Source of the DNA: Catellatospora paridis
GTDB lineage: Bacteria > Actinomycetota > Actinomycetes > Mycobacteriales > Micromonosporaceae
Length of the DNA: 64,000 nt
Reading direction: 5' to 3'
Assembly: GCF_009720365.1 (NCBI RefSeq)
Contig: NZ_ML769312.1
Coordinates: 744,001 to 808,000 of the forward strand
Shown: one piece after another, positions 19,710-29,648 of the stretch
How positions within the stretch are numbered: position 1 is the stretch's first letter
Layout of the letters: each line of letters starts with the position of its first letter
The notes under the pieces: model-generated
Told to the model about the DNA's origin: nothing
Databases searched by the model: none
What the model saw: the letters and a program-made list of their open reading frames with translations, nothing else
Position numbers and translations under genes: made by a program

Positions 19710-21002
19710 ATGGGCGGCGTGAGCGAGCGCAGCACCCACGTGGTGGTCATCGGCGGCGGATTCGCCGGCGTCGCCTGCGCCAGGACGCTCACCGGCCAGC
19801 CCGACATCTCGGTGACGCTGCTGGACCGCAACGGCTACCACCAGTTCCAGCCGCTGCTCTACCAGGTCGCCACCGCCGAGATCGACCCCGCCGACGTGTC
19901 CTACGACCTGGCCGACATGTTCGCCGAGCACGACAACGTCGAGGTCCGCACCGCCGACGTCACCGCCGTCGACCCGCAGACCCGCACCGTGACCCTCGCC
20001 GACGGCGGCACCGTCACCGGCGACGTGCTCGTGCTCGCCGCCGGCGCGCAGGCCAACTTCTTCGGCGTGCCCGGCGCCGCCCAGCACGCGTACCCGCTGT
20101 ACACCCTCGACGACGCGCTCCGGCTGCGCGAACGGCTCCGCGAGGTCTACGTCGAGGCCGCCGCCGAAGGCCCGGCGAGCGCCGGCGAGATCACCTTCGT
20201 GGTCGTCGGCGGCGGCGCGACCGGCGTCGAGACCGCGGGCGCGCTCGCCGAGCTGGTCGGCACGATCCTGCCCCGGCAGTTCGAGAAACTCGCCCTGATC
20301 CGCTCCCGGGTCGTGCTCGTCGACCACGGCCACGCCGTCCTCGGCCCGTTCGGGCCCGGCGCGCAGGCCTACGCCGCCGAGCAGCTGCAGCGCCGCGGGG
20401 TGCGGCTGCGGCTGGGTGTCACCGCGACCGAGGTCTCCGCCGACCACGTCACCCTCGACGACGGCACGACCGTGCCGACCAGGGCGACCGTGTGGGGCGG
20501 CGGCATCGCCGCCGCGCCGCTCGTCGGGGCCTGCGGCGTGGGCACCGGCCGCGGCGGGCGCGTCGACGTGCGCCCCGACCTGACCGTCGACGGCCACCCC
20601 GACGTGTACGCCGCCGGCGACGCCGCGAACATCACAGGCGCCGACGGCCTGCCCCTGCCGCAGCTCGCATCGGTGGCGCAGCAGGCCGGCCGCTGCGTCG
20701 GATTCAACATCATCGCCGCTGCGTGCGGGCGGCCGCGCAGCGCGTTCGCGTACCACGACAAGGGCATCATGGCGATGATCGGCCGGGACGCGGCGGTCGC
20801 CGAACTCGGCGCCCGCCACCACGAGCTGCACGGCCGGATCGCGTTCGCGGCATGGCTGGGCATCCACGCGTACCTGATGGCCGACGCCCGCGCCGAGACC
20901 AACGCGTTCGTCACCTGGGCCGAGGAGTTCTACCTGCGGCCCGGCCACTGCCCGCAACGGCTGCTCACCCCGCCCGCCACGACTGCCAGGAGCGCGTCAT
21001 GA
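19710..21002 (+). CDS. NAD(P)/FAD-dependent oxidoreductase (NDH-2-like)
   Basis: A 430-residue two-dinucleotide-fold flavoprotein similar to type II NADH dehydrogenase. FAD site: VVVIGGGFAGVACARTL; NAD site: FVVVGGGATGVETAGALAEL; second FAD site: HPDVYAAGDAAN. RNGYHQFQPLLYQVATAEI is the usual NDH-2 quinone-side stretch, and YHDKGIMAMIGRDAAV is also typical. It would oxidise NADH and reduce quinone at the membrane face, although the C-terminal amphipathic helix is short (IAFAAWLGIHAYLMA). It is the first gene of a seven-gene operon and overlaps zwf by four bases. A GTG at 19719 is an alternative start. Confidence 0.88.
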   Translation: MGGVSERSTHVVVIGGGFAGVACARTLTGQPDISVTLLDRNGYHQFQPLLYQVATAEIDPADVSYDLADMFAEHDNVEVRTADVTAVDPQTRTVTLADGGTVTGDVLVLAAGAQANFFGVPGAAQHAYPLYTLDDALRLRERLREVYVEAAAEGPASAGEITFVVVGGGATGVETAGALAELVGTILPRQFEKLALIRSRVVLVDHGHAVLGPFGPGAQAYAAEQLQRRGVRLRLGVTATEVSADHVTLDDGTTVPTRATVWGGGIAAAPLVGACGVGTGRGGRVDVRPDLTVDGHPDVYAAGDAANITGADGLPLPQLASVAQQAGRCVGFNIIAAACGRPRSAFAYHDKGIMAMIGRDAAVAELGARHHELHGRIAFAAWLGIHAYLMADARAETNAFVTWAEEFYLRPGHCPQRLLTPPATTARSAS

Positions 21003-22423
21003 CCGCACCCGCGACACCCGCGCCCGCGGACGTGCTCGTCGTCTTCGGCATCACCGGCGACCTGGCCAAGGTGATGACGTTCCGGTCGCTGTACCGCCTC
21101 GACCGGCGCGGCCTGCTCACCTGCCCGGTCATCGGCGTCGCCGGCGACGACTGGACCGTCGACAAGCTGCGCGAACACGCCCGCGAATGCATCACCGGCG
21201 CCGGCGAGCAGCTCGACGAAGCCGTGTTCGCCCGCTTCGCGGCCCGCCTGTCGTACCTGTCCGGCGACTTCACCGACGCCGGGCTGTACCAGCGCGTCGC
21301 CGCCGCCGTCGGCGACGCGGGAACACCCGTGTCGTACCTGGAGATCCCGCCGTCGCTGTTCGCGACCGTCGTCAAGGGCCTGTCCGAAGCCGGGATCGTG
21401 CGCGGCGGGCGGGTCGTGGTCGAGAAACCGTTCGGCCACGACCTGGCCTCGGCCCGGGCCTTGGCCGAACAGCTGCACCAGTACCTCGACGAGTCGCAGC
21501 TGTTCCGCATCGACCACTTCCTCGGCAAGATGGGCACCGAGGAACTGGTGTACCTGCGGTTCGCGAACACGATGCTGGAACCGGTCTGGAACCGCGCCCA
21601 CGTCGACAGCGTGCAGATCACCATGGCCGAGGACTTCGGCGTCGAGGACCGCGGCCACTTCTACGACCCCGTCGGGGCGCTGCGCGACGTCGTCGTCAAC
21701 CACCTGATGCAGGTCCTGGCCGGCGGGGCCATGGAACCCCCGGCCGGCCGGCACCCCGACGCGCTCAAGAACGCGCAGGTGGCCCTGTGGAGCGCGGTCG
21801 CCGACGCCGACCCGGCCGACTACGTGCGCGGCCAGTACGACGGCTACCAGCACATCGACGGCGTCAAACCCGGCTCGACCACCGAGACGTACGCCGCCCT
21901 GAAACTCGAGATCGACAACTGGCGCTGGTCCGGCGTGCCGTTCTTCATCCGCACCGGCAAACGCCTGCCCGCCACACAGACCGAGTTCCGGGTCGTGTTC
22001 AAACGCCCACCCCGGCTCGGCCTGCCCGCGCTCGCCGGCGGCATGCCCGAACCCGACCAGTTCGTCATCAAACTCGACCCGACCACCGGCACCCGGCTGC
22101 GCCTGGACGCCCGCCGCGCCGACGCCGACGGCCCCGAACCGATCACCCTCGACATGGAGTTCGCGACCGAGGGCGGCGAAGGCCCCACCCCGTACGAGGT
22201 GCTGCTGCACGCCGCCCTGATCGGCGACGCCAACCGGTTCACCCGCCAGGACGGCGTCGAGGAGACCTGGCGCATCCTGCAGCCACTGCTCGACAAACCG
22301 TCCCCGATCGAGCCGTACGCGCCCGGCACCTGGGGCCCCGCCGGCGCCGAGCAGCTCGTCGCCGGACACGGCTGGCGCGGCCCGTGGATCGTCGACACCG
22401 ACCCGCCCGGCAAGATGCCATGA
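20999..22423 (+). CDS. zwf: glucose-6-phosphate 1-dehydrogenase
   Basis: A 474-residue glucose-6-phosphate dehydrogenase, oxidising glucose-6-phosphate to 6-phosphogluconolactone with NAD(P). The cofactor loop reads GITGDLAK (family consensus GASGDLA), EKPFGHDL follows, and the active-site motif RIDHFLGK is at residues 170-177. Length is in the normal 460-510 range. It overlaps the gene before it and the gene after it by four bases each. Finding zwf here, away from opcA, tal or pgl, suggests a paralogue devoted to this operon rather than the housekeeping copy; that is inference. From here on GAA and AAA become frequent, unlike in neighbouring operons. Confidence 0.93.
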   Translation: MTAPATPAPADVLVVFGITGDLAKVMTFRSLYRLDRRGLLTCPVIGVAGDDWTVDKLREHARECITGAGEQLDEAVFARFAARLSYLSGDFTDAGLYQRVAAAVGDAGTPVSYLEIPPSLFATVVKGLSEAGIVRGGRVVVEKPFGHDLASARALAEQLHQYLDESQLFRIDHFLGKMGTEELVYLRFANTMLEPVWNRAHVDSVQITMAEDFGVEDRGHFYDPVGALRDVVVNHLMQVLAGGAMEPPAGRHPDALKNAQVALWSAVADADPADYVRGQYDGYQHIDGVKPGSTTETYAALKLEIDNWRWSGVPFFIRTGKRLPATQTEFRVVFKRPPRLGLPALAGGMPEPDQFVIKLDPTTGTRLRLDARRADADGPEPITLDMEFATEGGEGPTPYEVLLHAALIGDANRFTRQDGVEETWRILQPLLDKPSPIEPYAPGTWGPAGAEQLVAGHGWRGPWIVDTDPPGKMP

Positions 22424-28422: not shown

Positions 28423-29648
28423 CCACCCGCACCCAGACCGCCGTCGTCGACATCGCCGGCGTCGTCCAAGGCATCGTCCTGGTCACCATCCCCGCCGCCA
28501 GCACCATCCTCACCGACCCCGCCCACTACGGGCTCACCAGCGCCCAATACGGCGCCATGTTCGCCCCACAGGTCATCGCCGCCATCGCCGCAGCACTGGC
28601 CGGCGCAGGCCTCGCCCGCCGCCACGGCACCCACGCCGTCTACCTCACCGGCCTCGCCTGCTCCCTGGCCTCCATGATCCTGCTACTGGCCAGCGCCGCC
28701 GTCATGCACCAGCAGCACCTCGCCTACCCACTGCTGCTCGCCGCCACCGCATTCCTCGGCGCAGGATTCGGCCTCGCCGTACCCGCACTCAACTCACTGG
28801 CCGCCGCATTCCACCCCACCGCCGTCGACAAGGCCGTCCTCATCCTCAACGCCCTGCTCGGCCTCGGCACCGCCCTCGCACCCGTCTTCGTCGCCCTGTT
28901 CGTCGGCCTCGGCTTCTGGTGGGGCCTGCCCGTACTGTCCACCCTGCTGCTCATCGCCCTGCTCGCGGTCAGCCTCCGGCTGCCCATGCACACCGGCGCC
29001 CGCGCCACCGCCGCCACCGCAGGCGGCCGCATGCCCGCCCGGTTCTGGCTCTACCTCGCCTTCGCCCTGCTCTACGGCATCTGTGAGACCGTCAACGGCA
29101 ACTGGGCCCAACTCGACATGACCACCAGCGTCGGCGCCTCCGCCACCACCGCCGCGCTCGCACTCACCGCGTTCTGGGCCATGGTCACCCTCGGCCGGCT
29201 CCTGTTCGCCGCCATCACCCGGTGGCTGCCCGCCCGCGCCACCTTCCACCTGCTGCCCTTCGCCCTCGCCGGCGTCTTCGGCATCATCGCCAGCCTGCCC
29301 CACGGCCACAGCGTCCAAGGCGTCATCGCCTTCGGCGCCGCCGGGCTGTGCTGCTCCGCCCTGCTGCCGCTCACCATCAGCTTCGGCCAGGGTGAACTCA
29401 CCGGCTTCTCGGCCGCCGTCGCCGGCGGCGTCATCGCCGCCTACCAGCTCGGCTACGGCATCGCCGCCTTCGGCGCCGGCCCGCTCGTCAACGCCGACAC
29501 CCCGCTGTCCCGCCTGTACGCCATCGCCGCGTTCGTCGCGCTCGGCATGGGCGTGCTGTCGTTCGCCGTCGCGCACCGCCAGCACTCGCCGCGGACTCTG
29601 CACCCCACACCCGCACCGGTGCACGCGTCCACGCAGTCGACGACCTGA
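28419..29648 (+). CDS. MFS transporter
   Basis: A 409-residue major facilitator with about 12 membrane helices; helix 1 is VVDIAGVVQGIVLVTIPAAS, and the helix 2-3 loop has GLARRHGTHAVY, a degenerate form of the GxLaDrxGrk motif. The second half starts after the central loop HTGARATAATAGGRMPARFW. The conserved acidic residue of helix 7 (ICETVNGNWAQLDM) lies in a sequence seen in FucP-like and sugar-type MFS proteins. It is the last gene of the seven-gene operon, coupled to the debranching gene by ATGA; it may import or export the sugar treated by the operon. Confidence 0.88.
   Translation: MTTRTQTAVVDIAGVVQGIVLVTIPAASTILTDPAHYGLTSAQYGAMFAPQVIAAIAAALAGAGLARRHGTHAVYLTGLACSLASMILLLASAAVMHQQHLAYPLLLAATAFLGAGFGLAVPALNSLAAAFHPTAVDKAVLILNALLGLGTALAPVFVALFVGLGFWWGLPVLSTLLLIALLAVSLRLPMHTGARATAATAGGRMPARFWLYLAFALLYGICETVNGNWAQLDMTTSVGASATTAALALTAFWAMVTLGRLLFAAITRWLPARATFHLLPFALAGVFGIIASLPHGHSVQGVIAFGAAGLCCSALLPLTISFGQGELTGFSAAVAGGVIAAYQLGYGIAAFGAGPLVNADTPLSRLYAIAAFVALGMGVLSFAVAHRQHSPRTLHPTPAPVHASTQSTT

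Follow-up and report, generated by a model that had tools for sequence, protein, structure and literature searches.

The stretch of DNA analysed here, called the window below, comprises 64,000 nucleotides of the 9.0 Mb genome of Catellatospora paridis (C1:744001-808000, C1 being contig NZ_ML769312.1; G+C 72.6% within the window), and our subject is an operon of seven forward-strand genes at 19710-29648, in which a GMC oxidoreductase stands together with a glucose-6-phosphate dehydrogenase (G6PDH), glucan hydrolases and an NDH-2-like flavoprotein. Gene families were assigned by Pfam and NCBIfam, and the genes, together with a palindrome ahead of them, are as follows.

19710..21002, + strand: NDH-2-like oxidoreductase (type II NADH dehydrogenase) dependent on flavin adenine dinucleotide (FAD) and NAD(P), with an alternative GTG start at 19719; Pyr_redox_2, E 8.6e-47
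20999..22423, + strand: zwf, G6PDH of a divergent subfamily; G6PD_N/C, NF009492 451.7 bits (cut-off 428), TIGR00871 450 bits (cut-off 400.6)
22420..24309, + strand: GH15 family hydrolase with a trehalase-like N-domain (TREH_N); PF00723 E 1.1e-69, PF19291 E 8.2e-14
24309..25901, + strand: GMC oxidoreductase, FAD sugar-dehydrogenase-like, with a cysteine cluster; PF05199/PF00732 (GMC_oxred_N/C)
25898..26263, + strand: SCP2-like small protein; PF02036 E 3.5e-12
26260..28422, + strand: alpha-1,6-glucosidase/debrancher-like enzyme with GDE_N_bis and GDE_C; PF14742 E 6.3e-46, PF06202 E 1.6e-11
28419..29648, + strand: MFS transporter (MFS7); PF07690 (MFS_1) E 1.5e-10, 11 hydrophobic segments by Kyte-Doolittle
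19670..19693, no strand: palindrome TTTAGC-N12-GCTAAA, ending 16 bases ahead of the first gene

The third codon position G+C agrees with the frames of all seven genes, and the stop-to-start analysis gave overlaps of 4, 4, 1, 4, 4 and 4 bases in gene order, confirming the statement of an earlier note on this DNA that all six junctions overlap by one or four bases. The same note concluded that the genes are made in fixed proportion, which overlap alone does not prove; actinobacterial operons of high G+C content often show overlaps of this kind. In five genus mates the operon occupies the same position and has the same 5' neighbours, and a start giving a 1- or 4-base overlap is possible at 19 of their 23 junctions; since the other four all join zwf directly to GMC, in operons without GH15, we do not regard the packing as chance. 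The palindrome is not kept in these five genomes and is therefore probably not an operator, and the block CGATATTGGAA, which lies 3' of it, is conserved in the genus mates.

We conclude that the operon is a composite, in which a redox cassette (genes 1-4 and 7) has been joined to a separate SCP2-debrancher pair (genes 5-6). The family sample consisted of 121 genomes, in which a close GMC (E<=1e-100) occurs in 16; the GMC loci of the 15 besides the own genome were examined. Two of these family loci have genes that match named Hamadaea and Rhizocola records exactly, both of them Micromonosporaceae. The complete seven-gene set is absent from every other locus inspected in these family genomes and among the 80 best named GMC loci described below, so that the check proposed in the earlier note, co-occurrence of all seven families, returned the full set for the window only. 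The operon reads NDH-2, zwf, GMC, SCP2, GDE (the debrancher), MFS without GH15 in genus mates G199 and G219, zwf, GMC, SCP2, GDE, MFS in G211 and G184, and zwf, GH15, GMC, SCP2, GDE, MFS in G166. The last three genomes carry cydAB directly past the MFS gene (with one gene between in G211), and an NDH-2 leader with the first codons of the gene persists 5' of their zwf (about 12 codons in G211 and about 5 each in G184 and G166), which suggests loss of NDH-2 from these three genus mates, all of them with cydAB close to the operon. In two further genus mates, G133 and G227, the syntenic genes have only SCP2-GDE near them, the GMC cassette being located elsewhere with cydA nearby, and we therefore read the window operon as a fusion of the two modules. 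Outside the genus, G144 holds NDH-2, zwf, GH15, GMC, SCP2 and GDE with cydAB; its SCP2 and GDE share 44% and 69% identity with the window proteins, less than the 62-66% and 80-81% of the pairs that stand alone in G133 and G227, so attachment of the pair to a GMC cassette may have happened on more than one occasion.

The independence of the SCP2-debrancher pair is also visible across the family. SCP2 homologues were found in 53 of the 121 genomes (150 matches listed) and debrancher homologues in 96 (at least 150 matches), and 137 of the 150 SCP2 matches lie directly 5' of a debrancher homologue on the same strand, with a median of 56 bases between match ends; the remaining 13 may pair with debrancher matches beyond those listed. 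The pair occurs also where no close GMC was found in the genome (for example G063), many genomes carry several copies, and the own genome has a further one at C1:609562-611965. The window debrancher, which has both GDE_N_bis and GDE_C as glycogen debranching enzymes do, matches the solved structure 7vma ('Amylo-alpha-1,6-glucosidase', E 9.1e-88). The earlier note had made the SCP2 protein a hydrophobic carrier on the quinone side. We have not kept a carrier for GMC or quinone as the default, because SCP2 normally partners the debrancher, in genomes with and without a close GMC, and the note's reason for placing it as a carrier in the electron chain falls away. A conserved partnership of this kind would imply a lipid-like ligand or carrier in glucan hydrolysis, and one may ask what role a protein of the sterol-carrier kind plays next to a glucan hydrolase; we found no description of the pair in the open-access literature.

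The redox cassette has a second copy in the own genome, at C1:276-308 kb, about 470 kb from the window operon. Here GMC (80% identical to the window protein), GH15 (75%) and two sugar transporters lie on one strand, and NDH-2 (56%), zwf (70%), cydA and cydB lie on the opposite strand about 5 kb off; this cydA, the GMC-linked one of the own genome, lies at C1:296120 and is separated from the paralogous GMC by 9.6 kb. Within the family, cydA lies near the close GMC in 11 of the 16 genomes, and in the own genome it lies near the paralogue.

Beyond the family, we used a profile of six GMC proteins and examined neighbourhoods of about 10 kb around the best 80 named of at least 583 relatives retained, which are the nearest relatives and not a random sample. 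A script predicted the genes of these loci and grouped them into clusters, whose representatives were assigned to families with Pfam; because many of the loci are cut by contig ends, the neighbour counts are lower bounds. By their titles, the loci span Actinobacteria, Verrucomicrobia, Planctomycetes, Chlamydiae, Chloroflexi, Acidobacteria, Alphaproteobacteria, Dadabacteria and others, and GMC identity reaches 69-72% between phyla in six loci, which points to horizontal transfer. The neighbours were cydB (37 loci), cydA (36), GH15 (33), SDR (31), NDH-2 (26), a cyclase family (22), zwf and a glyoxalase-like gene (18 each), GH63-like and aquaporin genes (15 each), a Na/H exchanger (14), aldose epimerase and CLC (11 each), SMP-30 (9), a Glu_dehyd_C type and a standard debrancher (7 each) and MFS7 (6). 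The 43 actinobacterial loci account for cydA in 34, GH15 in 32, SDR in 22, NDH-2 in 19 and zwf in 17, and among 22 actinobacterial genus labels, assigned by hand from titles, zwf is held by 17, NDH-2 by 16, and cydA and GH15 by 15 each. MFS7 homologues 43-70% identical occur in seven GMC loci, from Actinobacteria, Verrucomicrobia, Acidobacteria and genome G080. The seven genes do not stay together, and what recurs jointly of the set that the earlier note had read as a pathway is the core of GMC, zwf, NDH-2, GH15 and sometimes MFS. Its suggestion of a link to sugar is borne out to the extent that glucose-oxidation families are found among the neighbours in relatives: the Pfam families of aldose epimerase, SMP-30 and Glu_dehyd_C occur there, the one linked SDR compared with solved structures is closest to glucose 1-dehydrogenases (1rwb, E 1.3e-61), and both SDRs scanned score above the cut-off of NF005559. 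All parts of the cassette are known enzyme types, and we found no description of the cassette, including its combination with an oxidase of its own, in the open-access literature, which is no proof of absence.

Two side observations concern these neighbourhoods. A gene of the PF04199 'cyclase' family lies directly upstream of GMC in 16 of 19 Streptomyces loci, and its product might hydrolyse the GMC product, e.g. a lactone. In Acidobacteria, Dadabacteria and a deltaproteobacterium (seven loci and others), GMC has aquaporin, glyoxalase-like or GH63-like genes next to it, and in some cases inspection by eye also showed small proteins of MsrB-like, YHS-like or DM13-like type; such loci perhaps represent a different, envelope-linked use of the same GMC enzyme.

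A link to respiration, also suggested in the earlier note, gains support from something that the window sequence could not reveal, namely cydAB of distinct clades adjoining the cassette in relatives. Pfam found the Cyt_bd_oxida_I and II domains for two CydA and two CydB, and the G[R/N]QPW motif is present in 46 of 48 linked CydA. We built a CydA tree from 36 GMC-linked, 25 unlinked and one unlabelled sequence, the control copies coming from the same 21 genomes only and several partial cydA matches being left out; two of the unlinked copies are from the own genome, away from both of its GMC genes. Linked and unlinked labels change only three times on this tree, compared with a mean of 19.6 after shuffling and with none of 500 shuffles as low, and a first tree without the lower-scoring unlinked copies also gave three changes. 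One clade consists of 15 linked CydA (support 100/100), a second of 20 linked CydA plus one Chloroflexota copy that adjoins NDH-2 and zwf (support 99/97), and the verrucomicrobial linked CydA stands apart. Because the linked CydA form separate clades, we infer from the tree that the cassette acquired cytochrome bd on two or more occasions and kept it afterwards. The aforementioned Chloroflexota copy is the second CydA of a genome that also contributed one of the 80 loci, and the 17.9 kb stretch examined around it holds no GMC; the cassette may thus work without GMC.

The clades bear on the view that the operon is a cluster of carbohydrate genes brought together by chance or by selfish assembly, without a joint pathway. 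The restriction of the full set to the window and the separate existence of the SCP2-debrancher pair would fit such a cluster, but the association of GMC, zwf, NDH-2, GH15 and cyd recurs in varied orders across genera, with linked oxidase clades, and it is absent around control CydA genes: homologues of GMC, zwf, NDH-2 and GH15 (E<=1e-10) were found in none of 24 stretches of 8-20 kb around non-linked CydA, namely the 23 unlinked tree copies outside the own genome and one copy not in the tree. We consider chance assembly improbable.

The isoforms of the other enzymes are distinctive as well. The closest solved relative of the window zwf protein is 4lgv (530 bits), which we take to be a mycobacterial zwf1-type enzyme and which likewise lacks an NADP-favouring arginine (GVASDD). 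At the position equivalent to R50 of the Escherichia coli enzyme the window protein reads GVAGDDW, and the canonical zwf of the own genome, on contig C3, reads GFARRDW. None of 21 distinct linked zwf copies has arginine there (16 have G, V or A and 5 have Lys). Excerpts of one study describe R50 of E. coli G6PDH as a main determinant for NADP+ and an actinobacterial G6PDH group without R50 that has two aspartates there, the cofactor of some groups being uncertain (PMC4807051). On the cofactor of this zwf subfamily, nothing was found in open-access literature on G6PDH cofactor or Rv1121. The window NDH-2 is homologous over its full length to type II NADH:quinone oxidoreductases, the closest solved ones being a non-electrogenic NADH:ubiquinone reductase (9mqy, residues 12-418, E 6.8e-63) and YjlD (9pxk, E 5.3e-50), and its D205, at the end of the second Rossmann strand, aligns with D and E of these two. 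It is 56% identical to the own-genome paralogue beside zwf-cydAB and 35% to the next by score, so that the linked NDH-2 pair is distinct from the genome's other copies. GH15 scores 376.6 bits with TreH1, below the cut-off of 820, and has no solved relative at E<=1e-10; we predict a trehalase or an oligosaccharide glucoamylase.

These enzymes can also be arranged as a stress-response carbohydrate operon, in which glucan hydrolysis and G6PDH supply the pentose phosphate pathway and NADPH, NDH-2 and cytochrome bd protect the cell from oxidative stress and over-reduction, the GMC substrate is a different small molecule, and no single electron pathway exists. Genes that enter and leave independently would suit this arrangement, as would the stress-type neighbours of some relatives (MsrB-like and DoxX-like by eye; Na/H exchanger, CLC channel, DUF389), and a G6PDH without an R50 equivalent is not proven to use NAD+, as far as the excerpted study goes. 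The repeated association with glucose-oxidising families, the separate CydA clades and the linked G6PDH without the NADP-favouring arginine speak against it, and we judge it unlikely, while taking it seriously.

We now turn to the GMC enzyme itself. Its cysteine cluster is C191-x2-C194-x2-C197-x4-C202; C191, C202, H452 and N495 are conserved in 86 of 86 sequences, C194 in 85 and C197 in 54. In a profile search the nearest solved relatives, matched over the full length, were the catalytic subunits 6a2u (BcGDH, a bacterial FAD glucose dehydrogenase; E 1.1e-59, profile 2-515) and 7w2j (FDH, a bacterial FAD fructose dehydrogenase; E 6.9e-48), and the top nine PDB fold matches of the AlphaFold 2 (AF2) model, whose mean predicted local distance difference test (pLDDT) score is 86, are all FDH or BcGDH with template modelling scores of 0.75-0.78. 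In BcGDH, according to excerpts of its structural description, Cys212, 218 and 222 are the ligands of a [3Fe-4S] cluster through which electrons leave FAD, and FAD is covalently linked at His105 (PMC6719666). This resemblance makes it very unlikely that GMC is instead an O2-reducing, pyranose-oxidase-like sugar oxidase whose hydrogen peroxide would be the reason for cytochrome bd as a guard. Pyranose oxidases do appear among the weaker matches (TIGR02462 E 1.6e-13; 9fl2 from fold rank 10), but all better fold matches and the seven best sequence matches are dehydrogenases, the cysteine cluster is typical of those dehydrogenases as far as the excerpts describe them (PMC6719666), and neither catalase nor peroxidase is among the recurrent neighbour families named, part of the neighbours having been identified. 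An MftG-like mycofactocin dehydrogenase is nearly excluded. MftG is the best NCBIfam match of the GMC protein (TIGR03970, E 1.2e-21) and is itself tied to respiration, being described in the available part of one report as a mycobacterial GMC enzyme that feeds mycofactocin electrons into the chain and thus as a precedent for a GMC-respiration link (PMC11778925); the score is, however, 77.2 bits against a cut-off of 387.45, and mycofactocin maturase (TIGR03962) exceeds its cut-off in 7 of 25 GMC-bearing genomes and not in the own genome.

From the observed gene content, homology, neighbourhoods, clades and residues we infer a substrate, a cofactor preference, an iron-sulfur cluster, an electron acceptor, a cytoplasmic place and a physiological role. 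Genes 1-4 and 7 would be a version of a mobile redox cassette that recombines and draws electrons for the membrane from glucose units in the cell. GH15 would free glucose or short glucans there, as would the debrancher, with the SCP2-debrancher pair adding to glucan hydrolysis. A cytoplasmic GMC dehydrogenase would oxidise glucose or a close relative, and electrons would leave its FAD by way of the cysteine cluster, probably of the iron-sulfur type, and reach either menaquinone or a partner in the membrane. G6PDH tuned towards NAD+ would yield NADH, from which the adjacent NDH-2 would pass electrons to menaquinone, and O2 would be reduced by a cytochrome bd of the cassette-associated clade, provided in the own genome by the paralogous cassette (C1:293-298 kb) and in several close relatives by genes next to the operon. 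The MFS protein would move the substrate or the oxidised sugar. This reading, in which GMC and an NAD-type G6PDH oxidise glucose units from inside the cell while menaquinone and a dedicated cytochrome bd take up the electrons, has in our estimation about an even chance of being right. A stronger version, namely a self-contained, horizontally spreading intracellular glucose-to-oxygen chain, in which a cytoplasmic iron-sulfur GMC reduces menaquinone directly, G6PDH and NDH-2 form an NAD-type branch and the terminal oxidase has evolved for it, is a tentative possibility that we consider doubtful.

Several observations weigh against this proposal. Genes drop out freely, GH15 being absent from four and NDH-2 from three of the five genus mates' operons, and the operon genes need therefore not act as one chain. 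No cyd gene adjoins the window operon itself, and the GMC loci of 4 of the 16 family genomes are without cyd, two of these being cut by contig ends. The GMC-cyd linkage is almost entirely actinobacterial (34 of 36 loci, the others from Chloroflexi and Verrucomicrobia); GMC loci of Acidobacteria, Dadabacteria and Alphaproteobacteria lack cyd and have aquaporin, glyoxalase-like, GH63-like or SMP-30 genes instead, and because the Acidobacteria-type neighbourhood (aquaporin, GMC, glyoxalase-like, GH63-like) is without cyd, the oxidase link is not universal. The representative called 'Zn glucose dehydrogenase' has NCBIfam matches only far below cut-off, and the G6PDH loop residues are described, in the excerpts mentioned, as important yet insufficient for cofactor choice (PMC4807051). 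The three near-invariant cysteines of the window GMC are spaced C-x2-C-x7-C, in contrast to C-x5-C-x3-C in BcGDH; Leu84 aligns with the FAD-linking His105 reported there, so that the histidine for covalent FAD is missing; and the AF2 model is weakest in the cysteine loop (pLDDT<50 at 197-204), where a BcGDH-like iron-sulfur cluster cannot be confirmed from it. No cytochrome c gene, the multihaem subunit of the BcGDH/FDH type, is among the seven window genes, and the hitchhiker/export subunit of that type (PF13618) has no match in the own genome. PF13618 has eight matches in 7 of the 25 GMC-bearing genomes, six of them on a different contig from the GMC-linked cydA and two (in G251 and G253) not placed. 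Because the export subunit is absent from the own genome and the window GMC has no hydrophobic N-terminal signal peptide as judged by eye, the enzyme should be cytoplasmic.

If the glucose-to-oxygen chain is true, it would constitute a respiratory input bypassing glycolysis and the tricarboxylic acid cycle. If our main reading is right, many actinobacteria and some other bacteria have a dedicated route, apart from central metabolism, in which a sugar dehydrogenase and a cytochrome bd of their own serve to burn sugar stored in the cell. It would then explain several poorly annotated gene neighbourhoods, give a concrete handle on the purpose of extra cytochrome bd copies, and offer cytosolic FAD glucose dehydrogenases for biosensors.

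Around the operon, the window carries at 13041-16692 on the reverse strand a three-gene molybdenum hydroxylase/CO-dehydrogenase-like set (large, FAD and 2Fe-2S subunits), and at 17479-19630 a fructosamine kinase-like gene, a DUF2267 gene and a divergent gene that matches no Pfam family. The molybdenum hydroxylase-like set adjoins the operon in the five genus mates too, and the DUF2267 gene and the gene without a Pfam family also flank it there.

Finally, we compare the proposed cassette with known systems. The alpha subunit of BcGDH (Burkholderia cepacia; 6a2u, 8grj) and the large subunit of FDH (Gluconobacter japonicus; 7w2j, 8k6k) have in common with the window GMC full-length homology, the fold, a cysteine cluster in the same loop and a sugar context. 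MftG is likewise a GMC flavoprotein with a role in respiration, as far as described in the part of the report cited above (PMC11778925). The window GMC differs from it in scoring far under the MftG cut-off and in belonging to a genome without mycofactocin maturase above cut-off. Type II NADH dehydrogenase and cytochrome bd occur in branched bacterial respiratory chains, and the enzyme types found here are the same; in contrast to such chains, they are here encoded together with G6PDH, GH15 and GMC, as isoforms distinct from the genome's other copies.

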